Assembly: GCF_018145655.1 (NCBI RefSeq)
Contig: NZ_JAGSSY010000005.1
Location: 1-64,000 of the forward strand
DNA length: 64,000 nucleotides
Direction: 5' to 3'
Source of the DNA: Campylobacter anatolicus
Lineage (GTDB): Bacteria; Campylobacterota; Campylobacteria; Campylobacterales; Campylobacteraceae
The position numbers and the translations under genes are program-made. Position 1 is the stretch's first letter; the number at the start of each line of letters is the position of its first letter. The notes under the pieces are model-generated. The model had not been told where the DNA came from and searched no databases. It saw only the letters and a program-made list of their open reading frames with translations. Below are positions 10,868 through 53,181 of the stretch, piece after piece.

Positions 10868-12358
10868 TTAAAGCCGTTTATCGCCTAAAGATTTATCATC
10901 TGTATTTTTTTCTATTAAATTTTCTAGTTTTTCAGTCTCGAAATGGGTATTTATCTCATTTAATTCAGGCATATTTTGAATAGCTTTATTTGAAATCTGC
11001 CGAAATTTCTCCACCCTGCCAACAAGCCCCTGTCGACCAACAAGCGATGTTATGACTTGATTGTAATGATTACTCGCTGTATTTAGTGTGCCGCCTAGTT
11101 TTAAAAGAGCTTCGCCAACGGCTATAACTTTGTTATATATATCTGCTGCACGAGTAGCGATCTCTAAGGCTTTGGCATTACCTTGCTCTATCCGCCATAA
11201 ATTTGCTATCGTTCGTAAAATTGGCATAAGAGTTGTGTGCGAGACCAAAACGACTCTACGTTCGTATCCGTAGTTAAAAAGCGTAGCATCAAATTTCATC
11301 GCCTCTATAAAAGCTGGCTCTATTGGCATAAACATCAACACAAAGTCAGGACTTCTACCATCCATAATAGAAGCATAATCCTTGCGTGAAAGCCCATCAA
11401 TGTGAGCTTTGATTGAATTTATATGCGACTTCATCGCACCTTGTAAGAGAGCTTCACTACCAACATTTGCCGCCTCTATCACCTCGCTATACGCCACAAG
11501 TGATACCTTGCTATCTATAATGACGCACTTGTTATCTGGCATAGCTACGACAAAATCAGGCACGAGATACAAACCATTATCGTCCTTAAACCTTTGCTGC
11601 GTGAAGTAATGCTCATCTTTTATTAGGCCAGCTGCTTGAAGTGTACGTTCTAGCTGTGCCTCGCCCCAGTTTCCAGCGATCTTGTTGCTACCTTTAAGTG
11701 CGGTCGTGAGATTTTTGGCTTCATTTGACATGCTTAACCCCACATTTAAGACGTTTTTTATCTGCTCACTTAGACTAGCACCACTTTTTAAACTTTCACT
11801 ATGCACCTCATTTACGCGATTTTGAAAGCTAATTATCTGCTCACGAAGTGGCTTTAAAAGGAGTTCTATTGAATTTTGGTTAAATTTATTAAACGCACTC
11901 GTTTTCTCATCAAAAATTTTATTTGCCAAATTTTCAAACTGAATGCTTAGGCTTTTTTGTGTTTCAGTAAAGTTTCGCTCTCTTTCTATTTCACTCTTTT
12001 GTCTTTCATTCAGTGTGCTTTTTAGTGCCGAAAGCTCTTGCAAAAGTGCGTTTTTATCCGAGTTTAAAGCCCTTATCTCGCTCTCACGTTCATTCAAACT
12101 CTCACGCCAAAACTCCCCTTGCTGTGCATATCCTTTAGCTCTTTCATTAGCCACACCAATCTCTTGTCGTAGCTCGCTTATCTCATGTTCTAGCTCACTC
12201 TCACGCTTTTTTAAACTTATTAATTCGCCACTTGTTTGTATAAGATCTTTTTGCAACTCAAATTTATCACGCTTGTAAGCAAATATCATAAAAGTTAAAA
12301 CTATCAAAATCACTACTAAAATGACAACAACAATATAAAACACTATAATCTTATCCAA
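10868..12358 (-). CDS. rmuC: DNA recombination protein RmuC
   Basis: 496 residues. An N-terminal membrane anchor (about 5-27) is followed by a long coiled coil rich in Glu/Lys (about 30-190). The conserved RmuC nuclease-like domain (about 210-420) contains GNWGEAQLERTLQ, YLVPDFVVAMPD and CVIIDSKVSL. RmuC limits DNA inversions and genome rearrangement at repeats. It stands alone on the minus strand with gene-poor flanks on both sides. Confidence 0.93.
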   Translation of the reverse strand: MDKIIVFYIVVVILVVILIVLTFMIFAYKRDKFELQKDLIQTSGELISLKKRESELEHEISELRQEIGVANERAKGYAQQGEFWRESLNERESEIRALNSDKNALLQELSALKSTLNERQKSEIERERNFTETQKSLSIQFENLANKIFDEKTSAFNKFNQNSIELLLKPLREQIISFQNRVNEVHSESLKSGASLSEQIKNVLNVGLSMSNEAKNLTTALKGSNKIAGNWGEAQLERTLQAAGLIKDEHYFTQQRFKDDNGLYLVPDFVVAMPDNKCVIIDSKVSLVAYSEVIEAANVGSEALLQGAMKSHINSIKAHIDGLSRKDYASIMDGRSPDFVLMFMPIEPAFIEAMKFDATLFNYGYERRVVLVSHTTLMPILRTIANLWRIEQGNAKALEIATRAADIYNKVIAVGEALLKLGGTLNTASNHYNQVITSLVGRQGLVGRVEKFRQISNKAIQNMPELNEINTHFETEKLENLIEKNTDDKSLGDKRL

Positions 12359-38400: not shown

Positions 38401-39096
38401 ATGAGCGAGATTAATTATAGTGTATTGGATATTTTGTCAAACAAGAAAGCTCTTTGCCTTGAAGATGAGCCTAAAATTTTAAAAAATTTAACTGAGTCTT
38501 TAGAGCTTTTCTTTAGTGATGTTGTTGGAGTGAGAGATGGTAAAGAAGCTCTTGATGAAGCCTTAAGCGGACTTTATGATGTATTAATTTTAGATATCAG
38601 CGTCCCACATATAGATGGCATAGAGATCGCAAGGTGTGTGCGTGAAAAAAATCACAAAATCCCGATAATAATCATAACAAGCCACACCGAACAAGAGTAT
38701 CTTTGGCGTGTAGTAGAGCTTAAAATAACAAGATATATACCAAAGCCATTCGATAAAGAAACTATCATAACCGCTTTAAAAGATGTCGCACTAGATTTGA
38801 CAGATCATCAGCCAATCATAAAGCTAAAAGATGGCGTTAGATATGATCCAGCCAAAAAAATCATCTACACAAATAATGAAATTTTTCACATTTCAAAGAG
38901 TGAAAGTCGACTGTTAGAGTATTTTTTAAGACACAAAAATAAAAATATTACTTATGAAGAGCTGTTTGATTATCTGTGGGAGTTTGACCAGCCAAGCAAA
39001 GAGGCGATAAAAACTATTGTCAAAGAGCTACGCAAAAAGATAGGCAAAGATGTGATTAAAAATTTATATGGCGTGGGGTATCTGTGTGAAATATAG
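38401..39096 (+). CDS. mccR: Response regulator of the sulfite-respiration locus
   Basis: 231-residue OmpR-type regulator. The receiver domain has acidic residues LEDEP (about 20-24), the phosphorylation Asp in VLILDISVPHIDG (about 65) and the conserved Lys in IPKPF. A winged-helix DNA-binding domain (about 135-230) contains ESRLLEYFLRH and EAIKTIVKELRKKIG. It overlaps the kinase gene. Position directly upstream of mccA in the same direction fits the MccR regulator known from the Wolinella mcc locus (my recall). The likely target is the mccA promoter. Confidence 0.85.
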   Translation: MSEINYSVLDILSNKKALCLEDEPKILKNLTESLELFFSDVVGVRDGKEALDEALSGLYDVLILDISVPHIDGIEIARCVREKNHKIPIIIITSHTEQEYLWRVVELKITRYIPKPFDKETIITALKDVALDLTDHQPIIKLKDGVRYDPAKKIIYTNNEIFHISKSESRLLEYFLRHKNKNITYEELFDYLWEFDQPSKEAIKTIVKELRKKIGKDVIKNLYGVGYLCEI

Positions 39097-40507
39097 ATTT
39101 GCGATAATTATATTTATGTTTATAATGCTTTACTCTATAATAATAGGCTTATTTTTCAACTTCTATAAAGAATTATCCATAAAAGACGCTAAGATAGAGG
39201 CTTTTCACGTACTTGAAACTATGAATGCAGTCAGAGACTATGTTGCAAATATCCAGCGTCCGCTTATAGATGAGCTAAAACAAAATGGCACAATGTCACC
39301 TGAATTTTTCGATGCTAGATTGCTCTCATCATCTTATATATCAAATGAAATTTATAAGATCCAAGCATCCAAAAAAAACATACACTACACTTACAGACTA
39401 GTCGCTACTGATCCATTAAATCCAGCACATGAGGGCACGGAGTTTGAAAATGAAATTTTAGAAGGATTTAAACAAAAAAAATATGAATTTTACTCAAAAA
39501 TTATCAGCGAAAATAACCAGCGTTATATATTTGTCGGACTACCTATTAAAAATTCTCAAGCCTCCTGTGTAACGTGCCATAACATAAACTCAGCACCAAA
39601 AAGCATGAAAGAAAGTTATAAAAACATAGATAGTTTTGAGGGTAAAGTTGGCGATACGATAGCGATGATGTCTCTTAAAGTCCCAGTAAAAAGTGTGCTA
39701 AACAATCATAAAGATGAATTTATGTTTAGTGGAGTTTTGATATTTATTGTATTTTTGATGTTGATGTTTTTTGTATTTAAAATACATGAAAAAGTCGCTA
39801 AGATCAAGGCACAAAATGAACTTTTGATGATAAATCAAAGTCGCCTTGCCTCAATGGGCGAGATGATACGAAATATCTCGCACCAGTGGAAGCAACCACT
39901 TGCACAAATAAGCTCAACACTTGTAAATTTAGAGCTTTATAACGAACGTGGAAAGCTAACAAAACAGATGCTTGAAGAGAAGATTAAAGAGACTGACGAG
40001 CAAGTTAAATTTATGTCTGATACGATCGATGACTTTAAAAATTTCTTTAACCCAAATATGCCAAAGAGCGAATTTACAAGCGAACAAGCCATAACACAGA
40101 CATGCAAGTTACTAAATGCGGCACTTAAAAAATATATAATACATATAAATATAGATATAAAAGAAAATTTTATCTGTTTTGGAAATATTAACGAAATTAT
40201 ACAAATTTTAATCAATATTATAAACAACGCAAAAGAGGCTTTTAGTACATCACATGTAAAAGATAGATATATCAATATCTCTTCATTTGTCGATAAAAAC
40301 AAAAAAACAATCACTATCGAAAATAATGCTGGAAATATCGACAAAAACGTAATAAACAAGATCTTTAATCCAAATTTTAGTACTAAAAAAACTGGAAGTG
40401 GGCTAGGACTTTATATGAGTAAAATGATAATAAAAAAATACAACGGAGAGATCGAAGTTGATAATATAAATGATGGCGTAAAATTCACAATTAATATTTT
40501 TTGTTGA
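39086..40507 (+). CDS. mccS: Haem-binding sensor histidine kinase
   Basis: Two membrane helices (about 4-25 and 215-235) flank a periplasmic domain of the Tll0287-like/DUF3365 type that ends in CVTCH (about residues 161-165), a covalent c-haem site. The cytoplasmic kinase follows: H-box MGEMIRNISHQWKQPLAQIS, N-box INNAKEAF and G-box TGSGLGLYMSK. I favour the GTG at 39086 (MKYRFAIIIF after the start), giving an 11-base overlap with mccR. An ATG 18 bases earlier is the alternative. The haem suggests direct sensing of redox state or of sulfite or a gas ligand. Confidence 0.87.
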   Translation: MKYRFAIIIFMFIMLYSIIIGLFFNFYKELSIKDAKIEAFHVLETMNAVRDYVANIQRPLIDELKQNGTMSPEFFDARLLSSSYISNEIYKIQASKKNIHYTYRLVATDPLNPAHEGTEFENEILEGFKQKKYEFYSKIISENNQRYIFVGLPIKNSQASCVTCHNINSAPKSMKESYKNIDSFEGKVGDTIAMMSLKVPVKSVLNNHKDEFMFSGVLIFIVFLMLMFFVFKIHEKVAKIKAQNELLMINQSRLASMGEMIRNISHQWKQPLAQISSTLVNLELYNERGKLTKQMLEEKIKETDEQVKFMSDTIDDFKNFFNPNMPKSEFTSEQAITQTCKLLNAALKKYIIHINIDIKENFICFGNINEIIQILINIINNAKEAFSTSHVKDRYINISSFVDKNKKTITIENNAGNIDKNVINKIFNPNFSTKKTGSGLGLYMSKMIIKKYNGEIEVDNINDGVKFTINIFC

Positions 40508-40520
40508 TAATTCATTAAAA

Positions 40521-40554
40521 TTCCCCCTTTTCCACCCCCATTTTTTAGTAATAT
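40521..40554 (+). promoter_or_regulatory. mccA promoter with C-rich direct repeat
   Basis: TTCCCCC and CCACCCCC form two C5 runs 12 bases apart (40523-40527 and 40535-40539), very unusual in this AT-rich context. They lie just upstream of a -10-like TAATAT (40549-40554), with a predicted start near 40561 and a leader of about 50 bases to mccA. This is the place and shape of a direct-repeat activator site, most simply for MccR. Confidence 0.5.
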
Positions 40555-40611
40555 TCTCAATACGAAGTCTTTTTGATTTTAGATTAAAACTTTTTGCAGG
40601 AAGGAGAACAC

Positions 40612-42690
40612 ATGAAAAAGTTGGATAAAGTGTTACTCGGACTTGTTGCTGGCGTTAGCATCTTTGCGGCAGGAGCCTGTGCCGCCCAAGCTGATGCTCA
40701 CGTTCATATGCAACAAACCGAGATGGCACGAAGTATTATGGCAAACCCTAAAGGGACGCTAAAAGAAAGAGGTGTTATATCCTTGCAAGACTACATTGTA
40801 GAAGAGCAAGAGATGTATAACTGGCTTTTTAAAAACCACCCAATTTTTACAAAATATGGTGGTAAAGTAGATGGTAAGCTCAACGTCGTGGATCGCGGTC
40901 ATGAGTGGATAGAAGAGGGACACGGAAAGGATCTATCAAAGGTAACTAAGCGTGATAATGGAAAAGGCTATAGTTCTATGATGTATAGAATCCCAGCCAC
41001 TTCAACTCTTATGTTTCCTAACAAATTTGTAGGTCCAGAAAAGTGTGGCGAATGTCACCCAGCACAGTATGAAGCTTGGAGCAGATCAAGACACTCGACA
41101 ACCATTCGTTTCCCTGGTGAACACCCAGAGGTAAATAATAACTTAACAGATCCAGTATTTGCAGCAGATACTGCACCTATTTTGCCACAAGGTATCACAC
41201 CTGATGTTGTATATGCAACAATTGGACACCTTAGAACAAAAATGGGCTTTATCGACCAATGGTTGCTACGCGGAACATACCACGTAGTAGGCGGTCTATT
41301 AAGAGATGGTACAGGAACGATAACACCAGGATCAAACCAATGGCAAAGAACTTGGGCGTTAAATTTAACTCCTGAAACTGTTAAAAAGATCAAAAAATGG
41401 ATCCCTGAGTTCCCTGAAACTCTTGAAGAGTATGGCTTAAATACTGGCTATGTAAGAGGTCTTGCATCTTATGCTGCTAAGTATAAACACACTATGAATT
41501 TCCAAGCAAACAGCTCATACTGCGAAGTATGCCACCCATTCAAATTTGATTTTAAATCAAGCGAAGAGTTTTATGCAGCACTTGGTAACGCTAAAGAGCT
41601 ACAAAAACACACTGTCTCAAAAGGTGTATCCTGTGAGGAGTGCCACGGAGCTGGTGGACACCTTGATGGTGCTACAAATTTTAGAATATCTAACTGCGAA
41701 CGTTGCCACCAAAGATTTAACTGGGATCCAGACACTTATAAGGCACATCCGCTTGCAAAAGTTGCTCCAGATTTAGCACTTAACTCTAAATTTAAATCAA
41801 TGGGACCAGGATGCGGATCTGAAGGATCACAGTCATTCTTTACAGCCCACTATTCAAAAGGTATGAGATGTGCTACTTGCCACGATCCACACGACACTAC
41901 AGGTCTTGTAACTGGTGATAAGAACATCAAAGGACTAAACTATAACTCAGAGCAAGGATACCTAAGCTCACTTTATAGTAAACCAAAACTTAAAAAAGAG
42001 TGTGCTGATTGTCACAAAGAGCAAGCTTATATAGCAGCTAAGGCAGAGACTCACAAAACTAACTCTTGTGCATCTTGCCATATGCCGTTTATGATGAGTT
42101 GCGAGAACTTCTATGCTATTCAATTCCAAGACAATGCTGGTTTTGATACTCAAAGAAGATCACATATTTGGAAGATAGATGTTAGTCCAGATCGCAAGTC
42201 TCTTGTAGCTGGCTCAACTTCAAAAGATGCTAGAGATGGTAAAGATTGGCACTTCCAAAGAAATGAAGACGGTAGAAACTTTATTGATCTAATGTGGGCT
42301 TGCGCTAGAACATCTTGGGCTGATCTTGATATGGTTGAAAACAAAGGTTGTCATAGTCCTGTTCTCTCAGAATTAAAAGAGACATTACACTTCAAATCAC
42401 AAAAACAAGCTTATGATGAAGTTATGGGATGGCAAACTCCTATCAAGAATGAATTTACTGCAGTTAAGATTGGTATAGAGGGAATGTTTAAAATTCTTGA
42501 AACAACTAAACTTGATCCAAGTGCTAAGACAAGAGTCTATGAGTTGATTGAAAAAGCACAAGACACCGTTGATCTAATCCAAAAAGATGGATCTTGGGGT
42601 ATGCATGCATTCAAATACACTAAACAAAGACTTGACGCTGCTAAAGGATACGTAGAAGAAGCTCAAAGAATTTTGAATAGTAAAATGTAA
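40612..42690 (+). CDS. mccA: Octahaem sulfite reductase MccA
   Basis: Periplasmic respiratory enzyme reducing sulfite to sulfide with six electrons. 692 residues from ATG 40612 (AAGGAG site), with a signal peptide ending near ADA (27-29). Seven CxxCH haem sites start at C145, C304, C341, C362, C420, C464 and C486. An eighth, non-canonical CX15CH site runs from C564 to C580-H581. This exact set defines MccA. The Wolinella enzyme has a haem-copper active site with Cu held by two cysteines (C399 and C495 as I recall); C401 and C497 here have the same 96-residue spacing. The first mcc structural gene, followed by mccBCD and ccsA1. Confidence 0.96.
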   Translation: MKKLDKVLLGLVAGVSIFAAGACAAQADAHVHMQQTEMARSIMANPKGTLKERGVISLQDYIVEEQEMYNWLFKNHPIFTKYGGKVDGKLNVVDRGHEWIEEGHGKDLSKVTKRDNGKGYSSMMYRIPATSTLMFPNKFVGPEKCGECHPAQYEAWSRSRHSTTIRFPGEHPEVNNNLTDPVFAADTAPILPQGITPDVVYATIGHLRTKMGFIDQWLLRGTYHVVGGLLRDGTGTITPGSNQWQRTWALNLTPETVKKIKKWIPEFPETLEEYGLNTGYVRGLASYAAKYKHTMNFQANSSYCEVCHPFKFDFKSSEEFYAALGNAKELQKHTVSKGVSCEECHGAGGHLDGATNFRISNCERCHQRFNWDPDTYKAHPLAKVAPDLALNSKFKSMGPGCGSEGSQSFFTAHYSKGMRCATCHDPHDTTGLVTGDKNIKGLNYNSEQGYLSSLYSKPKLKKECADCHKEQAYIAAKAETHKTNSCASCHMPFMMSCENFYAIQFQDNAGFDTQRRSHIWKIDVSPDRKSLVAGSTSKDARDGKDWHFQRNEDGRNFIDLMWACARTSWADLDMVENKGCHSPVLSELKETLHFKSQKQAYDEVMGWQTPIKNEFTAVKIGIEGMFKILETTKLDPSAKTRVYELIEKAQDTVDLIQKDGSWGMHAFKYTKQRLDAAKGYVEEAQRILNSKM

Positions 42691-42699
42691 TCAAACAAT

Positions 42700-42719
42700 G
42701 GGAGCCGCCTTTGGCTCCC
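42700..42719 (+). terminator. mccA-mccB intergenic hairpin
   Basis: GGGAGCC and GGCTCCC form a perfect 7-base stem with a 6-base loop, ten bases after the mccA stop. No T-run follows, so it is more likely a partial terminator or mRNA-end stabiliser that makes mccA mRNA more abundant than the downstream genes. Confidence 0.6.
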
Positions 42720-42737
42720 TATCTAAAAGGGCAAAAT

Positions 42738-43502
42738 ATGCAAAAACAAATTTTAAAAAGCTTCATCTCGGTCTTATTTTTAACAAGTTGTGCTTTTAGC
42801 GTTGAGCTTAACACTGATACTCAAAAAGAGTCTTACAGTATCGGAGCATCTACTGGTGGGCATATAGCAAACCAAATTTTAGGACACAAAAAACTTGGAG
42901 TTTTAACTGACGTAGATGCATTAGTGCAAGGCTTTATCGATGGTCTTAAAAAACAAAACAAGCTTTCAGACGATGAGATATTAAATTCGTTAAACAAAAG
43001 AGCTGACGCACTAAATAAGGCAAATGAAGCTATCAAAAAAGCAGAGCTTGATAAAAATAAAAAAGCATCAAAAGATTTTATGAACAAAAACGCAAAAAAT
43101 AAAAATGTAAAAACTACAGCTTCAGGCTTACAATATGAAATTTTAAAAGCAGGGAAAGGTGAAAAGCCAAAGCCTGAAAGCATAGTTTTAGTTAATTATA
43201 GAGCGTATTTACCAAACGGCGAAGTTTTTGAGGATAGTTATAAAGCTAAAACATCCGTAACACTATCACTAATAACTGTTATAGAGGGTCTAAAAGAAGG
43301 TTTGGTATTAATGAATACCGGATCAACATATAAATTTGTCATACCGAGCGAACTTGCTTACGGAGATGAAGATGTTGATGTGATTCCTGCTGGCTCTGCC
43401 GTAGTTTTTGAAGTTGAGCTTTTGCAAGTTGGTAAACCAGGGACAACATTTAATAAAACAGATAAAAATAGCGAAGATAACAAGTCTAGTGCTAAGCAGT
43501 AA
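42738..43502 (+). CDS. mccB: FKBP-type peptidyl-prolyl isomerase MccB
   Basis: About 254 residues from ATG 42738. The signal ends in LTSC (a plausible lipobox) or at AFS-VEL. An FKBP N-terminal dimerisation region (about 20-120) is followed by a lysine-rich helix and the FKBP catalytic domain, with SGLQYEIL, VLVNYRAYLPNGEVFEDSY and PSELAYGDEDVDVIPAGS. Folds prolines in periplasmic proteins. Between mccA and mccC it presumably assists maturation of MccA, as proposed for Wolinella. Confidence 0.9.
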   Translation: MQKQILKSFISVLFLTSCAFSVELNTDTQKESYSIGASTGGHIANQILGHKKLGVLTDVDALVQGFIDGLKKQNKLSDDEILNSLNKRADALNKANEAIKKAELDKNKKASKDFMNKNAKNKNVKTTASGLQYEILKAGKGEKPKPESIVLVNYRAYLPNGEVFEDSYKAKTSVTLSLITVIEGLKEGLVLMNTGSTYKFVIPSELAYGDEDVDVIPAGSAVVFEVELLQVGKPGTTFNKTDKNSEDNKSSAKQ

Positions 43503-43531
43503 TTCCTTTCTGCTAAAAATGGAGGAGAAAT

Positions 43532-44215
43532 ATGGACACTAAAAACAACAGAAGAGCGTTTATGAAGTATGTCGCTCTTGGCTCTGCTGCGATTGGTATG
43601 ACAGCTTATGCTGTGGCAGATCCACAAACAAACTCAGAAAAAGAAGAGACAAAAAAACCACATTTTGGTATGATTTTTGATCAAAACAAATGTGTTGGTT
43701 GCACCGAGTGTGAGTTAGCCTGTGTGAAAACTAACTTGGTGCCAAAAGGACAGATGAGACTTTTTGTAGAGGATAAAACAGATCAAAATAACCGCTTAGA
43801 GCGTAGATTTGTTAGAATTTCTTGTCAACAATGTCAAGATGCACCTTGTGTTAACGTATGTCCTACAAACGCTTGTTGTAGAGATGAAAAAACTGGCATC
43901 GTTACTATGAATACCGATGACTGCATCGCCTGTAAATACTGCATTGTAGCCTGCCCTTATGATGTAAGGTTTATAAATCACGAAACAAAAGCAGCTGAAA
44001 GCTGTAACTTCTGTATAGATACAAAACTAGCTAAAGGCGAAGAGCCAGCTTGTGTATCTTCTTGCAGATACGATGCACTTGTATTTGGTGATTTAAACGA
44101 TAAAAATTCTCATATAAGTAAGCTTTTAGCCATAAAAGATAGCTTAAGAATGCGTCCAGAATGTGGCACAAGCCCTAGTTTAAGATATATACCAGCCGTA
44201 AAGATGGGGGTGTGA
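43532..44215 (+). CDS. mccC: Periplasmic four-cluster Fe-S protein MccC
   Basis: 227 residues with a twin-arginine signal (NRRAFMKYVALGSAAIG). Four ferredoxin-like [4Fe-4S] cysteine groups follow: CVGCTECELAC, CQQCQDAPCVNVCP, CIACKYCIVACP and CNFCIDTKLAKGEEPACVSSC-type. NrfC/PsrB-like electron carrier. It would be exported folded by Tat and pass electrons from MccD to the haems of MccA. The stop is one base before the mccD ATG. Confidence 0.94.
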   Translation: MDTKNNRRAFMKYVALGSAAIGMTAYAVADPQTNSEKEETKKPHFGMIFDQNKCVGCTECELACVKTNLVPKGQMRLFVEDKTDQNNRLERRFVRISCQQCQDAPCVNVCPTNACCRDEKTGIVTMNTDDCIACKYCIVACPYDVRFINHETKAAESCNFCIDTKLAKGEEPACVSSCRYDALVFGDLNDKNSHISKLLAIKDSLRMRPECGTSPSLRYIPAVKMGV

Positions 44216-44216
44216 T

Positions 44217-45173
44217 ATGAATGGTGCTATAAATTTTACACAAACTTTCTCGCACGGAGCTGTTATTTGGCATTGGCCTATCGCTGTGTATTTATTACTT
44301 GCTGGTATGAGTGGTGGGGCACTTATAGTAGCTATTATGATAAAGTATTACAAAAAACAAACTGGCATCACGCCACTTTTTAAAGCTGCTAGTTCGCTCG
44401 CACTTGTAACTATACTTCTTGGTATGGTTTGTCTTGTTGGTGATCTTGATAGACCACTTTTATTTTGGAAAATTTTAATCAACTATAACTTCAAATCAGT
44501 TATGTCTATCGGTGTTGCAGCACTTTGTATCTATATACCACTATGTTTTGTTATGTGTATTTATGCGTTTGAAGAAGAGCTTAAAAAGACACCTTTAAAA
44601 AGACTTGTAGAAATTTTAATGGCTATTTTAAATCCACTTCGAAAACCATTATATACTCTTGCACTAATATTTGCAATTGCAGTTTGTGCCTATACTGGCT
44701 TTCTTATCTCTGTATTGGTTAGATTTCCTATACTTAACACAGCTGTTTTACCGGCACTTTTTGTCGCTTCTGGTCTTTCTGCCGGTATCGCTGGTTCAAG
44801 CCTTATCGCAACAGCTTGTTTTAAAGAAGAGACTCACAGTAGCGATATGAAGATACTTCATACGATAGAATGGCCTGTATTAGTAGCTGAAATTTTACTA
44901 ATTACAATGCTTTTTGTATCACTTATAATCGGTAGCGAAGTACAAAAAATTGCAAGCACAGCATTCCTTGATGGTTTTTATGCTAAAATGTTTTGGATAG
45001 GCGTAGTTGGCATAGGTTTTGTCGCTCCTATCGTGATAAACTTCTGTCTTGGTAAAAAATTTGCCTCAACGCATTTTGCATTTTATCTAAGTGCTATTGC
45101 TAGTATTATTGGTGTTTTGATGCTACGTATGTTTATACTATACGCAGGGCAGACTTATAGCATTTTGATTTAA
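44217..45173 (+). CDS. mccD: NrfD/PsrC-type membrane quinol dehydrogenase MccD
   Basis: 318 residues in about eight helices. The N-terminal WHWPIAVYLLLAGMSGGAL is the conserved NrfD quinol-site helix region. Oxidises menaquinol in the membrane and hands electrons to the Fe-S protein MccC. One base separates it from mccC and 15 bases from the synthase gene. Confidence 0.93.
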   Translation: MNGAINFTQTFSHGAVIWHWPIAVYLLLAGMSGGALIVAIMIKYYKKQTGITPLFKAASSLALVTILLGMVCLVGDLDRPLLFWKILINYNFKSVMSIGVAALCIYIPLCFVMCIYAFEEELKKTPLKRLVEILMAILNPLRKPLYTLALIFAIAVCAYTGFLISVLVRFPILNTAVLPALFVASGLSAGIAGSSLIATACFKEETHSSDMKILHTIEWPVLVAEILLITMLFVSLIIGSEVQKIASTAFLDGFYAKMFWIGVVGIGFVAPIVINFCLGKKFASTHFAFYLSAIASIIGVLMLRMFILYAGQTYSILI

Positions 45174-45188
45174 CTATATGGAGGTAAA

Positions 45189-47870
45189 ATGGGAACAAAA
45201 ATGACAAAGATACTTTTTTCTTATAAATTTGTTCTCATTCTTCTTGCTATCTTAGCCATAGGTGCTGGGATAGCGACTTTTTTAGAGAGTATTTACGATA
45301 CTGCAACAGCTCAAATTTATGTCTATGAGGCACTTTGGTATGAAGCCTTAATGCTTTTAATTAGCATTTCGTTACTTGGTATTATCATTAAGAGCAAAAT
45401 GTATCGACGCTTTGGTGCATTTGCTATACATATAGCTTTTATTATCATTATCTTTGGTGCATTTATGACAAGATTTTTTGGCGAAGAAGGTGTTTTGCAC
45501 GTGCGTGAAGGCGAGAGTTCAAGCGAAATGATAAGCGTCAAGCCATACTTGCAAATTCGTATTGACGATGACATATATGAATACTACACAAAGCTATCAC
45601 AGATAGGCAAAAACGACTTTACTATCATACAACCAATAGATGGCAAAGATTTTATTATCAAATTTCAAAGTTATGAGCCATCTATCAAAGGCAGACGATC
45701 AAATTTAAACGTATTAGCTGGTTTTAATGATAATCTTGAAGCCATTAGGCTAAACGGTGGTATTGGTTGGCTAGGTGAGCCAAAAGTAGTGGAGCAAGAT
45801 GGCAAACAAATAATGCTATCTTGGGGATCAAAGCTAACGCAACTGCCGTTTTCTATAAAGCTTTTAAATTTTAAACTCCAGCGTTATCCCGGCTCACAAA
45901 GTCCATCATCATATGCAAGCGATATTGAAGTTTTTAAGGGCGAGAAAAAGGTGCTTGAGTATGAAATATTTATGAATAATCCACTGGTATTTGATGGGTA
46001 TAAGTTCTTTCAGTCATCATATGATAAAGATGAACATGGAACGATCTTAGAGATAAATCGCGATCCAGGAAAGATTCCAACCTACATTGGATATTTCTTA
46101 CTTTGCGTTGGATTCATAGGGAATTTTTTCACACCAAAAAGTAGATTTGCTCACCTTAGTAAATTTATAAAAAATAGTCAAATTTTACTGATCTTTGTTT
46201 TGATATTTTTTATAAATTTTAACCTTCAAGCAGCAGATGAAGGTGCTTTAGAACATTTTAAACAAAACACCAAAGCTCACGCAAACGGCGAATTTGCTAC
46301 ACTTTTAGTGCAAGACTTTATGGGTCGGACAAAACCTATTAGTACACAAGCATTTGAAGTACTTAGCAAGATGAGTATGAGTGAGAGCCTTTTTGGACTT
46401 AGCCCAGAACAAGTCGTGCTAGGTATGAGTACTAACCCAACTTTGTGGCAAGATCTTAAAACCATTAGAGTTAAAAACAGTGAGATAAAAAAGCTTTTAA
46501 ATTTAAATAGCAATGAGAAATTCGTAAGCTTTAACTTTATGTTTGACGAACAAGGTATGTATAAACTAGCTAAAGAGGTCGATAATGCTAATGCTAAACC
46601 TGCATCAAAACGCTCAAAATTAGATAACGATCTTATAAAATTTGATGAGCGAATAAATATTGCTTATCTTACGCTAAAAGGGGTGTTTTTTAGATTTGTT
46701 CCAGTAAAAGGTGACGCAGATGATAAGTGGCTCTCTCCAAACGACGCATTTATGGCGTATGGGCTCGATAAAGAGGCAAAAGTCATCTTAAATGATTATC
46801 TGGTTGGGCTAGAAAGTGGTGTCGCGATAAATCAATGGGATAAGGCAAACGAAGCACTTCATAAACTAAAACAATACCAAAGAGTCGCTTCAAGCCATGC
46901 TTTACCGAGTGATACGCAGATCAAAGCTGAGGTCTTTTATAACAAATTTATGATTTTTAAAAAGCTTGTCTATTTTTATATGATACTTGGATTTGTCGCA
47001 CTTGGACTTGGATTTGTCAGTGTGTTTCGCACAAAGAAATTTAAAACATCAAAAAGTATAATATTTTGGCTATTTGTGTTTGGCTTTATCGCTCACACAT
47101 TTGGACTGATAATACGTGCCTACATCTCAGGACATGCACCTTGGAGCGATAGCTATGAGAGCATGATCTACATTGGCTGGTCGGCAGTTTTAGCGGGTAT
47201 TGTATTTTTTAGAAGCTCACTTTTAAGTATTGCGGCGTCAGCGATTTTAGCAAGTATCGTTATGCTTGTTGCACATATGAGCTTTGTAAATCCACAGATA
47301 ACTAACCTTGTGCCTGTTTTAAAGTCATACTGGCTAAGCATTCATGTCTCAGTTATCACCGCAAGTTATGGATTCTTAGGACTTAGCTGTTTGCTCGGGC
47401 TTTTGGGACTTATCCTAATGAGTCTAAAAAATTTCAAAAACCAGCCACATATAAACGAACAAATTCGTTACATTACAGCTATAAACGAGATAAGTTTGAT
47501 AGTAGGGCTTTCTATGCTTACAGTTGGTAACTTTTTTGGTGGCGTGTGGGCTAATGAGAGCTGGGGGCGATACTGGGGCTGGGATAGCAAGGAGACCTGG
47601 TCGTTTGTCTCTATCATAGTATATGCGATCGTGCTTCATTTAAGATTTGTACCAAAGCTAAACTCTATCTATGTCTTTTGTGTAGCTAGTATGTTTGCAT
47701 ATAGCTCGATCATAATGACATATTTTGGTGTAAATTTTTACCTTACAGGTATGCACTCATACGCAGCAGGTGAAGCACCTGGTGTGCCTAATACGCTCTA
47801 TTGCATCATTGCGATTTTGATTGCACTTAGTGTATTTGCATATCGCGGGAAAAATATCAAAAATATATAA
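45189..47870 (+). CDS. ccsA1: Dedicated cytochrome c synthase CcsA1 (ResB-CcsA fusion)
   Basis: 893-residue CcsBA-type haem lyase. The N-terminal ResB/CcsB half has membrane helices near 10-30, 50-70, 75-95 and 300. The C-terminal CcsA half carries the haem-handling WWD motif WGRYWGWDSKETWSF and flanking His residues. It attaches haem to cytochromes c in the periplasm. In Wolinella a special isoform in the mcc locus attaches the CX15CH haem of MccA. Location here makes the same dedicated role very likely. A general CcsBA for ordinary CxxCH sites should be elsewhere in the genome. Confidence 0.93.
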   Translation: MGTKMTKILFSYKFVLILLAILAIGAGIATFLESIYDTATAQIYVYEALWYEALMLLISISLLGIIIKSKMYRRFGAFAIHIAFIIIIFGAFMTRFFGEEGVLHVREGESSSEMISVKPYLQIRIDDDIYEYYTKLSQIGKNDFTIIQPIDGKDFIIKFQSYEPSIKGRRSNLNVLAGFNDNLEAIRLNGGIGWLGEPKVVEQDGKQIMLSWGSKLTQLPFSIKLLNFKLQRYPGSQSPSSYASDIEVFKGEKKVLEYEIFMNNPLVFDGYKFFQSSYDKDEHGTILEINRDPGKIPTYIGYFLLCVGFIGNFFTPKSRFAHLSKFIKNSQILLIFVLIFFINFNLQAADEGALEHFKQNTKAHANGEFATLLVQDFMGRTKPISTQAFEVLSKMSMSESLFGLSPEQVVLGMSTNPTLWQDLKTIRVKNSEIKKLLNLNSNEKFVSFNFMFDEQGMYKLAKEVDNANAKPASKRSKLDNDLIKFDERINIAYLTLKGVFFRFVPVKGDADDKWLSPNDAFMAYGLDKEAKVILNDYLVGLESGVAINQWDKANEALHKLKQYQRVASSHALPSDTQIKAEVFYNKFMIFKKLVYFYMILGFVALGLGFVSVFRTKKFKTSKSIIFWLFVFGFIAHTFGLIIRAYISGHAPWSDSYESMIYIGWSAVLAGIVFFRSSLLSIAASAILASIVMLVAHMSFVNPQITNLVPVLKSYWLSIHVSVITASYGFLGLSCLLGLLGLILMSLKNFKNQPHINEQIRYITAINEISLIVGLSMLTVGNFFGGVWANESWGRYWGWDSKETWSFVSIIVYAIVLHLRFVPKLNSIYVFCVASMFAYSSIIMTYFGVNFYLTGMHSYAAGEAPGVPNTLYCIIAILIALSVFAYRGKNIKNI

Positions 47871-47887
47871 AATTTCAAGGAGAAAAA

Positions 47888-48721
47888 GTGAAAAAGTTAA
47901 TACTAGCGTTGGCTATTGCAGTTATTGCAAATGCCGGATTTATAAAAGATGGTATAGACGCACAACAAAGCGGAGACCATAATAAATTAGTTGAAATTTA
48001 CGAACAAGCGTGCAATAAAGATAAGAAAGCATCAGGATGCTATAACCTAGCCGTGGTTTATGACGAAGGCACTGGTGGCGTGGCGAAGGATTACGATAAA
48101 GCAAGAGAGTATTACAAAAAAGCATGTGAAGCAAACTTTGCATCAGGTTGTAATAACCTAGCTCATATGTATGAAAGCGGACGCGGTATAGATCAAAATT
48201 TTACAATGGCAAGTATAATTTATGAAAAAGCTTGCAAGGACAACGAAGGTTGTACATCTTTAGGGCTTTTATATGCAAATGGTGCAGGTGTAGCAAAAGA
48301 CGCAAAAAAGGCAAACGAACTTTACAAAAAAGCATGTGAATATGGCGATATGTGGGGGTGCAATAACCTAGGATATGCCTATATGCAAGGTAGTGGTACA
48401 GAAAAAGACTTTGAAAAAGCAAAACAATACATAGAGTTAGCTTGTAACGGTGGCGTTGGCATAGGATGCAATAACTTAGCATTTTTATATGCAAACGGCA
48501 AAGGCGTAAAGCTTGATATGCCAAAAGCAAAAGAGTATTTTGAGAGAGCTTGCAACATGGGCTATAATAGAGGATGTAATGAGCTTGGCATACTCTATGC
48601 TGATGGCAAGGGCATTGAAGCTGACGCAAAAAAGGCGAGAGAGTATTTTAAGAAAAGTTGCGATGATGGCTTAGTTGAAGCGTGTGATAATATGAAACTA
48701 CTTGACAAGATAACAAAATAG
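47888..48721 (+). CDS. Sel1-repeat (Hcp-like) secreted protein in the mcc locus
   Basis: 277 residues. The signal peptide is followed by about seven Sel1-like repeats of about 36 residues, each with a Cys pair (for example CEANFASGCNNLAHMYESG). These fold as disulfide-closed helical hairpins in the Helicobacter Hcp family. It starts at GTG with AAGGAG upstream and ends three bases before the NosL gene region. Sel1 proteins are usually scaffolds, so it may hold maturation partners together; this is inference from position. Confidence 0.88.
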   Translation: MKKLILALAIAVIANAGFIKDGIDAQQSGDHNKLVEIYEQACNKDKKASGCYNLAVVYDEGTGGVAKDYDKAREYYKKACEANFASGCNNLAHMYESGRGIDQNFTMASIIYEKACKDNEGCTSLGLLYANGAGVAKDAKKANELYKKACEYGDMWGCNNLGYAYMQGSGTEKDFEKAKQYIELACNGGVGIGCNNLAFLYANGKGVKLDMPKAKEYFERACNMGYNRGCNELGILYADGKGIEADAKKAREYFKKSCDDGLVEACDNMKLLDKITK

Positions 48722-48729
48722 GAGTGAAA

Positions 48730-49770
48730 ATGCTAAAAATTTTATTTGCAAGTACAATTTTAATAATAAGTTTAAACGCACAGATGTTCCAAAGCGTAGA
48801 ACCTAGTCAAGCTACACTAATACAAAGTGGCAAAGGACGTGAATACTGCCCAAATTGCGGTATGAATTTAGTTAAATTTTATAAGACAAATCACGCACTC
48901 AATGGCAAACAATACTCATCTCTTCACTGTCTTTTTGAAGCGACAAATGGGCAAATCCCAACTGGTGCAATGGTAGTTGATACTAAAAATTTAAATTTTA
49001 TAGATACAGCAAAAGCCTTTTATGTAGTCGGTAGCAAGATCAAAGGAACAATGACACAAAATAGCAAATATGCCTTCTCTACTGAAGCTGATGCTAAGGA
49101 ATTTCAAGCAGAAAATGGCGGTGAAATAATGGACTTTAAAGCTGCTTACAAAGTTGCCGGTGCTGATTTTAACAAAGACAATGAGATGATAAAGGCTAAG
49201 CGTGAGGGTGGTGTATATAAAAAAGGTAGAGAGTTTTATGAGCAAAACTGCCCAAGAGTTAGCAAACGTGGCTTTGAAAATATCGCTGAACTTAAAGCAA
49301 AGTTAAAAAGTGTATGTAAAAATAGCGATGATGCAGCACTTCAAGCAGCTGCACTTTACATCTGGGATAACCCAAAACTAACAACAAAGCAGGCTGAACG
49401 CATAAAGATTCCTGATGATGCAAAATGTCCAGTATGTGGTATGCTAGTAGCTAAAAATCCAAATTGGGCGACAATGATACAAGATAAGGACAAGAGCTTT
49501 TACTTTGATGGTGTTAAAGACTTGATGAAGTATTATTTTCAAAACGATAAGAAATTTGATAAAATTTTTGTTAGCGATTATTATAAACTTCACAAAATAG
49601 AAGCAAAAAAAGCATTTTACGTTATCGGCTCAAACGTCTTTGGTCCTATGGGTGATGAACTAGTGCCATTTGAAAAGGAGAGCGATGCGAGAGAATTTGC
49701 AAAAGACCATCTCGGTAAAGCAGTACTTAAATTTGATGAGATAGACGAGAAGGTAATAAGAGAATTATGA
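48730..49770 (+). CDS. Double NosL protein with haem-less cytochrome-like insert
   Basis: 346 residues from ATG 48730 (AGGAG five bases upstream; the GTG at 48724 would overlap that site). Signal peptide, then two NosL-type copper-binding modules with CPNCGM (about 40-45) and CPVCGM (about 233-238). Between them, about 160-215, GREFYEQNC and AALQAAALYIWDN resemble a cytochrome c domain that has lost CxxCH. NosL proteins deliver copper to the nitrous oxide reductase. Here a copper-chaperone role for the MccA haem-copper site is likely. As I recall, Wolinella has a NosL-like protein (MccL) in this context. Confidence 0.87.
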   Translation: MLKILFASTILIISLNAQMFQSVEPSQATLIQSGKGREYCPNCGMNLVKFYKTNHALNGKQYSSLHCLFEATNGQIPTGAMVVDTKNLNFIDTAKAFYVVGSKIKGTMTQNSKYAFSTEADAKEFQAENGGEIMDFKAAYKVAGADFNKDNEMIKAKREGGVYKKGREFYEQNCPRVSKRGFENIAELKAKLKSVCKNSDDAALQAAALYIWDNPKLTTKQAERIKIPDDAKCPVCGMLVAKNPNWATMIQDKDKSFYFDGVKDLMKYYFQNDKKFDKIFVSDYYKLHKIEAKKAFYVIGSNVFGPMGDELVPFEKESDAREFAKDHLGKAVLKFDEIDEKVIREL

Positions 49771-49955
49771 GAGCGATAGTGGCGGTATTTAGCTTTTTTG
49801 TAGTGATTTATACACTTATTTTTATTCACTATATTAGCTTTGATACAGACACTAAAGATACACAAATAGCTAAAATTTCAGCCAAGATAAAAGATGTGCG
49901 TCCATCATTTAGCTTTATAAGTGATGAATATAAAGGCTTTGTCTATGCTAAGTAA
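49767..49955 (+). CDS. Small single-helix protein
   Basis: 62 residues with one membrane helix (about 3-25) and a polar tail outside. Its start overlaps the NosL gene stop by four bases and its end overlaps the FtsX-like gene by 11, so it is a genuine part of the unit. Function unknown; it may be a small subunit of the following ABC transporter. Confidence 0.7.
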   Translation: MRAIVAVFSFFVVIYTLIFIHYISFDTDTKDTQIAKISAKIKDVRPSFSFISDEYKGFVYAK

Positions 49956-51054
49956 AGTTTTTATTGATTATGCAGTACTTTTACTGCGTAAAGATAGAGC
50001 CGACCATACCTTTAGTTTTTTGATATTTTGCTTTATCGTTTTTATCTTAAGCTCTGTGCTTTTCATATCAAGTTCAATCCAGCAAGACATCATAAAAAGT
50101 GTGAAATCACATCCTGATATCGTGGTAGAGGCTCTACGTGCTGGTAAGCGAGATACCATGCACGATGGCTATATCTATGATGCCAAACAGATAAGTGGCG
50201 TTAGTGATGTGGTTGGCGTGGTTGATGGGTATTATTACTTTGCACAAAAACGCACATGGTTTCACATCATAGGTGACAACTCACTTAATGAAGATGAGAT
50301 GATTATCGGTGAAGGCGTAAAAAGAGCGATGAAAGAGCTATACTACGAAGATGTTTTTAATTTCTTGACAGAAGAGAATTTAATACCTATAAAAATAAAT
50401 AAAACCAGCCCACACTCTACAAATATCATCTCAAATAACGTTATATATATGCACGAAGATAACGCAAGAGAGGTCTTAAGCCTTGATGACAATGAATACA
50501 CAAAGATGTATGTCAGCGTTCCAAACTCAAATGAGATAAGTGAAGTCGCACTTAAATTTATGAACCTATATCCAAACACTTTTGCCAAAACCGCAGAAGA
50601 TAGGATAGCTGAGGTAAAACATATCTATTATTACAAAGGCGGCATTTTTATGGTGCTTTATATCGTAGCGATGATCTCATTTTTCATACTGCTTAAAAAT
50701 CAAATTTCATTAGCATATGGACAGAAGAAAAAGGAGATAGCAATCCTACGAAGCATAGGATATAGCATAAAAGATATCATAGCTTTAAAATTTATACAAA
50801 ATTTTATAGTCGCCGTAAGTGCCTTTTTGCTTGGATGTGCATTAGCGTATATTTACGTCTTTGTGTTACACGCACCACTTTTACGTGAGATATTTTTAGG
50901 CGGTGAGATTGATAACTCTATCACTTTTACGCCGATATTTGACTTTGATACGCTATTTTTACTATTTTTATTTAGCGTAGTGCCATTTCTTGCATTTGTC
51001 ATCATACCTTCATGGCGTGTAGCTATAAGTGATATGAGCGAGGCGGTAAAATGA
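49945..51054 (+). CDS. FtsX/MacB-type ABC permease
   Basis: About 369 residues from ATG 49945 (the frame begins 24 bases earlier without a ribosome site). One N-terminal helix, a long periplasmic domain (about 45-220), then three C-terminal helices with the FtsX signature AYGQKKKEIAILRSIGYS (about 255-272). Paired with the next ATPase, it fits MacB/LolCE-type machines that move or release substrates at the outer face of the inner membrane rather than pumping across it. Location suggests a role in NosL or copper-site handling. Confidence 0.85.
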   Translation: MLSKVFIDYAVLLLRKDRADHTFSFLIFCFIVFILSSVLFISSSIQQDIIKSVKSHPDIVVEALRAGKRDTMHDGYIYDAKQISGVSDVVGVVDGYYYFAQKRTWFHIIGDNSLNEDEMIIGEGVKRAMKELYYEDVFNFLTEENLIPIKINKTSPHSTNIISNNVIYMHEDNAREVLSLDDNEYTKMYVSVPNSNEISEVALKFMNLYPNTFAKTAEDRIAEVKHIYYYKGGIFMVLYIVAMISFFILLKNQISLAYGQKKKEIAILRSIGYSIKDIIALKFIQNFIVAVSAFLLGCALAYIYVFVLHAPLLREIFLGGEIDNSITFTPIFDFDTLFLLFLFSVVPFLAFVIIPSWRVAISDMSEAVK

Positions 51055-51719
51055 TAGAGATAAAAAATCTTTTTAAAATTTACAACGAAGCAAAACCGAA
51101 TGAATTTAAGGCATTAAAAGATATAAATTTAAGCATAAATGACGGTGAGATCGTGATAATAAAAGGCGTTAGCGGCAGTGGTAAAAGCACTCTACTCTCA
51201 CTAATCGCAGGATTTAGTATGCCAAGCAGTGGCGAGATCTTAATAAATTCGCAAAATATCTCAAAGCTACCTGACATAATGGGCTCAAACATCCGCCATA
51301 CACAAATAGGCTTTATATTTCAGTCATTTAACCTACTTGATGGACTAAACGTAGAGCAAAACGTTCAAGCACCACTAAGTCTGACAAAGCTTAAAAAAGA
51401 TGAGCTTAAAAGCATGACAGAAGAGGCGATGAATATCGCAAACATAGCTCATAAAAAATGGCAGAATATCTCAAGTCTAAGCGGTGGCGAGAAGCAAAGA
51501 TGTGCGATAGCAAGGGCTTTAGTAATGCAACCAAACATTATCTTAGCAGATGAACCAACTGCGAATTTAGACAAAGAAAACTCACTTATATTTATAGATA
51601 TGATTAAAAAATTTAAAGAGCTTAATAAAACGCTCATCATAGCTACTCACGACTTGCTATTTGATGAGCTTAGCTTTGTAGATCGCATAATACATATGCA
51701 AAATGGCGAAATTTTATGA
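51051..51719 (+). CDS. LolD/MacB-type ABC ATPase
   Basis: 222 residues with all ABC motifs: GVSGSGKSTLLSLIAG, LSGGEKQRCAIARAL, IILADEPTANLD and IATHD. The closest style is LolD/MacB, matching the FtsX-like permease it overlaps by four bases. Its end overlaps the next membrane protein gene by four bases. Confidence 0.9.
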   Translation: MIEIKNLFKIYNEAKPNEFKALKDINLSINDGEIVIIKGVSGSGKSTLLSLIAGFSMPSSGEILINSQNISKLPDIMGSNIRHTQIGFIFQSFNLLDGLNVEQNVQAPLSLTKLKKDELKSMTEEAMNIANIAHKKWQNISSLSGGEKQRCAIARALVMQPNIILADEPTANLDKENSLIFIDMIKKFKELNKTLIIATHDLLFDELSFVDRIIHMQNGEIL

Positions 51720-52669
51720 GTATATTTCTTTCAAACGCACTCATCGTATTTTTAGCCATTGAGCTTGTCATCATCGCACTTTTGACTATCTCACAGTTTA
51801 ATGTAATACAAATCATACGTAGCTGGGACTTTGGAGCTACCACAAATTTGCAATACTCATTAGAAAAGCGAAACTACCTTGTAAATACTATTTTATTTTT
51901 CACAGTTGTGTGCAAGATGGTCTTATTTATATTTTTTGCAGTAGTGCTAAATGAGTTAGCAAATATCGTCCCAGGTGCTATGTGCTCGGCCGGTGTAGTT
52001 GGTGCAAACAAATACGGCAATATGCTTTTGCTACTTAAAATTTTACTTATTTTTGGACTTGGGCTATGGCTGATTATCAATAAGCTTGATTTAAAGGCTA
52101 TAAATTTTCCATTTTTAAAGCGTAAATATATCATTTTCACCGCACTTTTTGCATTTATCTTAGTTGAGTTTGTGCTTGAACTACTATTTTTTACAAATAT
52201 CCCACTTAAAGTGCCAGTATTTTGCTGCTCGGTAGTATTTCAAGCTCCAAAGCTACCTTTTGGCTATACTCAAGCGATGCTTGCTAGCTTTTTTTATATG
52301 ATTTTAGTAGTGATTTTAGTGCTAAATTTCTTAAAACAAACTATGAGTAGCTTTGCTTTAAATTTATTATTTTTATTTGTAGCATATTATGCTATTACCT
52401 ATTTTTTCGGGCTTTATGTATACGAACAACCTAACCATAAATGCCCTTATTGTATGCTCTTGAGTAATTATTACTATATAGGATATTTCATCTGGGGGTC
52501 GCTATTTTTGGGGATTTTCTTTGGGATAGTGCCATTTTTAGTTGAGTTAATCACTAAAAACTCATACACTCACTATCTTAAATACTCATCCATTTGGCTG
52601 ATCGTAAATGCATTAATATGTAGTTTTTATGTTATAAAATACTACTTGCAAAATGGGGTGCTACTGTGA
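51716..52669 (+). CDS. Cys-containing polytopic membrane protein, unknown family
   Basis: 317 residues with about eight hydrophobic helices. Cysteines sit at or near helix ends: PGAMCSAG, VFCCSVV and a KCPYCM motif (about 240-245) in a loop. The last resembles a thioredoxin-like or metal-binding CxxC pair. I do not recognise a family. Overlaps by four bases on both sides with the ATPase and the NosL-like protein, so it belongs to the same module; copper passage or redox handling is a guess. Confidence 0.75.
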   Translation: MSIFLSNALIVFLAIELVIIALLTISQFNVIQIIRSWDFGATTNLQYSLEKRNYLVNTILFFTVVCKMVLFIFFAVVLNELANIVPGAMCSAGVVGANKYGNMLLLLKILLIFGLGLWLIINKLDLKAINFPFLKRKYIIFTALFAFILVEFVLELLFFTNIPLKVPVFCCSVVFQAPKLPFGYTQAMLASFFYMILVVILVLNFLKQTMSSFALNLLFLFVAYYAITYFFGLYVYEQPNHKCPYCMLLSNYYYIGYFIWGSLFLGIFFGIVPFLVELITKNSYTHYLKYSSIWLIVNALICSFYVIKYYLQNGVLL

Positions 52670-53181
52670 TAAAACGGCTCTTTGCAAGTATACTTATACT
52701 TGGTGTTTTAACACTTTTAGTAATATCGGCTGACATCAGCACAAACCGCATAGACATCGTGCATAATAACACCGCAAAACAACCCATAGATATTGAGCTA
52801 AATAGATATATCTGCACTGAGAGCCGTATGCTCATAACCGATCTTTACAACTCAGCCCAAGCCATAATGCCAAATGGTGATACATACTTTTTTAATGACA
52901 TAGGCAACGCCTTTATCTGGCTAATGCGTCAAAAAAACAAAGATGAGATCATACTTTATGTCTATGCAACCGACTCGAAGCACTACATCTTAGCTAAAAA
53001 TGCGTGGTATTCACGCGATGAGGCGACACCAATGGGATATGGCTTTGGTGCGTATGAGTTTCATATGTATGGTACGTGTGATTATTATTATGATGAGGTT
53101 TTACTATGTGCAGCACGTGGTGAAACGCTAATAAATCCATTCATTTACACACTTTTACAAAAGGGTAAGCAACTTCTTTAA
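52666..53181 (+). CDS. Degenerate NosL-like protein
   Basis: 171 residues with a signal or anchor helix (about 4-24). The pattern ICTESRMLITDLYNSAQ followed by YFFNDIGNAFIWL matches the NosL fold (C-x2-C-GM-I-D--y-AA, FDDIG--i-Wl) but with Ser in place of the second Cys and Arg in place of Gly before Met. Contains other Cys (MYGTCDYYYD). Last gene of the mcc region. Possibly a paralogue that uses Met or Cys alone to hold copper. A hairpin overlaps its stop codon. Confidence 0.65.
   Translation: MIKRLFASILILGVLTLLVISADISTNRIDIVHNNTAKQPIDIELNRYICTESRMLITDLYNSAQAIMPNGDTYFFNDIGNAFIWLMRQKNKDEIILYVYATDSKHYILAKNAWYSRDEATPMGYGFGAYEFHMYGTCDYYYDEVLLCAARGETLINPFIYTLLQKGKQLL

Follow-up and report, generated by a model that had tools for sequence, protein, structure and literature searches.

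A NosL-linked ABC module in the mcc sulfite respiration locus of Campylobacterota and its putative role in copper-site maturation

How does copper reach the active site of the haem-copper sulfite reductase MccA? We found no explanation in the literature, and the data presented here point to a defined module. The starting point is a stretch of 64,000 nucleotides of Campylobacter anatolicus DNA (the window), in which an earlier sequence-only reading had noticed seven genes behind a sulfite respiration locus and had proposed for them a dedicated role in copper insertion or maturation.

Organization of the mcc locus

Positions 38401-53181 of the window carry 14 collinear genes, all on the plus strand, in the order mccRSABCD-ccsA1 followed by a tail of seven genes. 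Gene set, order, strand and range agree in full with the sequence-only reading. The first gene, mccR (38401..39096), encodes an OmpR-type response regulator (Pfam Response_reg and Trans_reg_C) and holds the same position in the type-1 mcc loci defined below. It is followed by mccS (39068..40507), coding for a sensor kinase with a Tll0287-like sensor domain assigned by Pfam. The CXXCH motif of this domain, at residue 167, is kept in 36 of 36 orthologues, and MccS may be a haem c-sensing kinase. MccA (40612..42690) is an octahaem copper sulfite reductase of type 1 that matches the Wolinella succinogenes enzyme (PDB 4rkm) over its full length (1273 bits, 76% identical) and contains seven CXXCH motifs, one CX15CH motif and both copper-ligand cysteines. 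The latter, which we take to be Cys399 and Cys495 in 4rkm numbering, sit in the conserved stretches GPGCGSEGS and FMMSCEN. The products of the next genes are an FKBP-type peptidyl-prolyl isomerase (mccB, 42735..43502; Pfam FKBP_N/FKBP_C), an NrfC-like 4x[4Fe-4S] protein (mccC, 43532..44215; Pfam/NCBIfam), an NrfD-type quinol dehydrogenase (mccD, 44217..45173; Pfam NrfD) and a ResB-CcsA fusion, the predicted haem lyase for the CX15CH site (ccsA1, 45189..47870; Pfam Cytochrom_C_asm and ResB). With mccRSABCD-ccsA1 present in full and in order, the locus is, by its gene content, a complete mcc sulfite respiration operon.

The tail comprises sel1, nosL2 (double NosL), smp, ftsX, lolD, cysM and nosLx, where cysM is a label coined in this analysis and the ftsX start codon was chosen by comparison with orthologues. 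The distance from ccsA1 to sel1 is 17 nt and that from sel1 to nosL2 is 2 nt; overlaps of 4, 17 (smp-ftsX), 4, 4 and 4 nt follow, a pattern that fits a single translationally coupled unit. Gaps or overlaps of 2-4 bases, claimed earlier for all junctions from sel1 on, are thus found everywhere except between smp and ftsX.

The tail had been taken for an addition behind the system known from Wolinella, and this view did not hold. One genome of our set encodes an MccA with a 193-residue stretch identical to 4rkm and is therefore W. succinogenes. Like the window, its locus (L117) contains mccRSABCD-ccsA1 and all seven tail genes in the same order, mccB being recovered by tblastn; the tail thus belongs to the mcc locus already described. 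The Wolinella locus differs by an extra open reading frame of 177 aa (11024-11557) between ccsA1 and sel1 that is absent from the window; some Sulfurospirillum loci (L113, L114) have reading frames of similar size at this place. At least one tail product, MccL, has reportedly been studied in W. succinogenes by Eller, Hein and Simon (2019, BBA Bioenergetics). Our literature search returned no discussion of MccL.

Linkage of the tail to one clade of MccA

The distribution of the tail was surveyed in 347 genomes of Campylobacterota, and the distribution data refer to this phylum; the loci obtained from one scan of all genomes likewise all came from Campylobacterota. MccA was found in 92 of the 347 genomes. 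Its tree, built such that clade assignment does not rest on the presence of the tail, splits into two deep and fully supported clades, here called type 1 and type 2. The haem motif CX15CH is present in all type-1 rows, whereas type-2 proteins have CX17CH (38) or CX18CH (2). The set of haem motifs is otherwise similar, and every row that spans the two copper cysteines retains them, in type 1 and type 2 alike. In all 40 type-2 loci (L042-L049, L127-L158) mccA adjoins a gene for a fused rhodanese-multihaem-cytochrome b protein, an electron partner other than that of type 1, and mccBCD were not found near mccA in the type-2 loci of the tree. A CcsA homologue is encoded near most of them.

All 51 genomes with type-1 MccA carry the tail. 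In 50, mccA and a close relative of cysM are no more than 16 kb apart, and in the remaining one (G208) mccA is at a contig edge with the rest of the operon on another contig. Among the rows of the MccA tree, 43 of 45 type-1 loci and 0 of 40 type-2 loci have the tail, the two type-1 exceptions (L051, L125) being contig-end cases. No mcc-type tail was found in the remaining, non-type-1 genomes among the 92 with MccA. Type-1 loci keep their gene order across seven genera, and this conservation is far beyond chance. In the cysM tree the mcc-linked copies form one clade (support 99/98); in the ftsX tree the mcc group contains a single intruder, L094, whose module is located within a nos cluster. 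As read from these sequences, the seven-gene tail is an integral part of the locus and is inherited together with type-1 MccA. Searches of plasmids with cysM and MccA by tblastn gave no match. In one Sulfurospirillum-like genome of the genus group of S. diekertiae (L093), mccRSAB and part of mccC are lost, while mccD, ccsA1 and an intact tail are kept.

The type-2 clade offers a natural control. Since type-2 MccA retains both copper cysteines but never has the tail, the latter is not universally required for enzymes of the MccA family. The MccA fold can exist without the tail, and copper can perhaps enter it by other means. An SCO1/SenC gene beside type-2 mccA was considered as a general substitute route for copper and rejected, as it occurs in only 1 of 40 type-2 loci.

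Relatives of cysM extend well beyond the mcc loci. They occur in 136 of the 347 genomes, 84 of which hold distant copies only, and 77 of these 84 lack MccA. The sequence-only reading had named a module found mostly in genomes without mccA as an outcome that speaks against its proposal. This is what the family as a whole looks like (77 genomes against 51), but not the mcc branch. It had also suggested asking whether the tail goes with mccA or with nosZ. The mcc branch accompanies type-1 mccA in 51/51 genomes; of the diverged modules, 19 were inspected, and 7 of these belong to or adjoin nos clusters. The clearest cases are the Sulfurospirillum modules between nosF and nosY (L108-L110) and L094. 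Like the tail, these modules consist of homologous FtsX-LolD-cysM-NosLx genes in the same internal order; unlike it, they stand among nosF, nosY and nosL, and their cysM falls outside the mcc clade. Other diverged modules are found among housekeeping genes. Many paralogous modules have no recognisable copper enzyme nearby, and several copies stand alone. Where a genome has more than one module, the mcc copy and the nos copy remain distinct.

The gene for N2O reductase, nosZ, is absent from 12 of the 51 type-1 genomes, including that of the window, and all of these keep the tail, which is therefore not a NosZ cassette there. For the window's genome we thus rejected a function of the tail for NosZ. 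This genome has two NosL domains in all, both encoded in the tail. A relative with NosZ (G013) has a nos cluster (L175) with nosZ, B, D, G, H, F and Y and no NosL. In the Wolinella genome, nosZ is split, with about 1.3 kb between its two parts (L173, 2022-5919), consistent with an inserted element.

Components of the tail

The first tail gene, sel1 (47888..48721), encodes an exported Sel1-repeat protein with six Pfam Sel1 stretches and 14 cysteines, including Hcp-like cysteine pairs in the repeats. The product of nosL2 (48724..49770) is exported and, as the sequence-only reading had it, truly double: two stretches exceed the Pfam NosL cut-off (109 and 52 bits), and the CxxCxM motif of the family is seen in the alignment as CPNCGM and CPVCGM. 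Its form varies between double with a linker (Campylobacter, Wolinella), double without a linker (Sulfurospirillum) and a single domain in some C. concisus. In L038 and other C. concisus loci it is the second NosL domain that is retained, in an open frame of 150-165 aa. The next gene, smp (49767..49955), codes for a membrane protein of 62 aa with a single TM segment; it has no Pfam match above cut-off, and its position is conserved in most type-1 loci.

The last gene, nosLx (52666..53181), encodes a membrane-anchored, diverged protein that had been described as NosL-like, and this description was borne out. The window protein itself has no Pfam match to NosL even at E 10, and hhalign with shallow genus-level profiles of nosLx and nosL2 gave a probability of 2.5. 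The relation was settled by deeper alignment and by a fold search. The mcc-linked orthologue in L119 reaches the Pfam NosL cut-off (29 bits), the structure of nosLx is predicted with confidence (pLDDT 93), and its best Foldseek matches are the NosL chains of NosDFYL (7znq_L, E 1e-4, probability 1.00). We conclude that nosLx, as modelled, has the NosL fold. The CxxCxM motif is intact in the mcc-linked proteins of L118, L119 and L124, and one Cys is left in Campylobacter, Wolinella and Sulfurospirillum (C50 in the window); in these three genera the protein may thus serve for structure or docking.

Between the NosL-type genes lie those for an ABC pair and cysM. The permease ftsX (49939..51054; Pfam FtsX) is of the FtsX/LolC type, with four TM-like segments and a large extracytoplasmic domain by hydropathy, and lolD (51051..51719; Pfam ABC_tran) encodes a LolD/FtsE-type ATPase with Walker A, signature and Walker B motifs. 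A four-TM permease of the FtsX fold with a periplasmic domain and a separate ATPase, as judged here from sequence and hydropathy, is the make-up of a type-VII (mechanotransmission) ABC system. The locus contains neither a NosD gene nor an ABC-2 type NosY. CysM (51716..52669) is a Cys-rich membrane protein with eight helices in its AlphaFold model (pLDDT 89). Across 61 distinct family members, mcc and nos copies included, M89, C90, C170, C171, H241, C243 and C246 are invariant; the cysteines include a CPYC motif. Of the two sides of the membrane, the loops with the five invariant cysteines occupy the one with fewer Lys/Arg residues (5 vs 9), and they are thus probably periplasmic. CysM has no Pfam match, and a Foldseek search of the PDB gave chance matches only (best E 1.8). 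CysM represents a widespread family of membrane proteins with invariant cysteines that has neither a Pfam model nor a relative among PDB structures.

A candidate copper-loading module and its alternatives

The reading that we consider probable is that the tail is the mcc-dedicated branch of a copper-site maturation module composed of NosL chaperones and an FtsX/LolD-type ABC system. For the CuZ site, NosL is well known to act as a Cu(I) chaperone (PMC6530538, PMC7558416). On the periplasmic side, Cu(I) would be taken up and retained by the exported double NosL and the membrane-anchored NosL-like protein. Permease and ATPase, of FtsX and LolD type respectively, would form a type-VII (LolCDE/MacB-like) machine in which cytoplasmic ATP powers movements in the periplasm, with no transport of copper through the membrane. 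CysM, whose five invariant cysteines are distributed over three loops of predicted periplasmic orientation, may serve as a Cu(I) or thiol relay; Sel1 and the small membrane protein would probably scaffold or hold MccA. By analogy to NosDFYL, ATP hydrolysis might then drive the release of copper to apo-MccA, where it would occupy the Cys/Cys site adjoining the catalytic haem. The arrangement would work like NosL and NosDFY in the assembly of N2O reductase, with FtsX/LolD replacing NosDFY.

That machinery (7znq, 7osf) likewise combines NosL-fold proteins with an ABC gene pair beside a periplasmic copper enzyme. The tail differs by its FtsX/LolC-type permease and LolD-type ATPase, the lack of NosD and the additional eight-helix Cys and small membrane proteins; its nosL2 is double and has an N-terminal signal without evident lipobox. 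In the Shewanella sir locus, sirAIGCDJKLM, a nosL (SO0485) and a nosY (SO0488) accompany sirA (PMC5955497, PMC6976685), so NosL and an ABC transporter stand beside an MccA-type sulfite reductase there too, although the permease there is annotated as NosY, a different ABC type.

In support of a copper role, every type-1 MccA is accompanied by the tail, the tail encodes two NosL-fold proteins, paralogous modules occur in nos clusters, and type-1 genomes without nosZ retain the tail. The argument that weighs most is the association with two distinct copper enzymes, in units that also encode NosL proteins. Against it speak type-2 MccA without the tail, the window nosLx without CxxCxM, modules near no copper enzyme and the tail of L093 without mccRSAB. 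The earlier copper-maturation proposal thus stands as the best reading for the type-1 loci, but does not extend to a requirement across the MccA family.

Alternatively, the ABC part could be a thiol or sulfur device, exporting sulfur species or maintaining the haem- or copper-site cysteines by disulfide/thiol upkeep before haem and copper are inserted, with NosL only accompanying it. The cysteines of cysM with their CPYC motif and probable periplasmic orientation, the cysteine-rich Sel1 protein, the DsbD_2-domain protein adjoining L094 and the former proposal that NosDFY supplies sulfide for CuZ (PMC6530538) would fit such a device. However, type-2 MccA has similar haem motifs and the same copper cysteines without the ABC part, and the ABC genes are flanked by two NosL-fold proteins in one coupled operon. 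The copper site of MccA is also not known to need a sulfide bridge, and we regard a thiol device as unlikely.

It is quite improbable that the module is a general copper supply for all periplasmic copper enzymes (NosZ, cbb3 oxidase, MccA), placed behind mccA for convenient co-regulation. The breadth of the family, its many genomes without MccA and the solitary copies would be expected from such a supply, yet the mcc copy forms its own clade that accompanies type-1 MccA in 51/51 genomes, and multi-module genomes hold distinct mcc and nos copies. An ordinary LolCDE/MacB-like exporter of lipoproteins or peptides, unrelated to the metal sites of MccA, would agree with the sequence comparison in that the best-matching families are LolD and LolCE. 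The NCBIfam scores fall far below the cut-offs (193 of 308 bits for LolD, 32 of 362 for LolCE), and the genes are strictly linked to NosL genes and to mccA or nos clusters, which makes this account most implausible.

The sulfite system as such was already known; as far as we searched, the new element is the putative NosL-linked copper maturation unit built on FtsX/LolD, with its undescribed eight-helix Cys protein. One gene family links sulfite respiration to the maturation of N2O reductase. More tentatively, and as a proposal we would not yet favour outright, Campylobacterota might possess a second class of machine for the assembly of copper sites that does without NosDFY, in which NosL chaperones, a mechanotransmission-type FtsX/LolD ABC system and an eight-helix Cys-rich relay of new fold act together, with one branch for MccA and one for NosZ.
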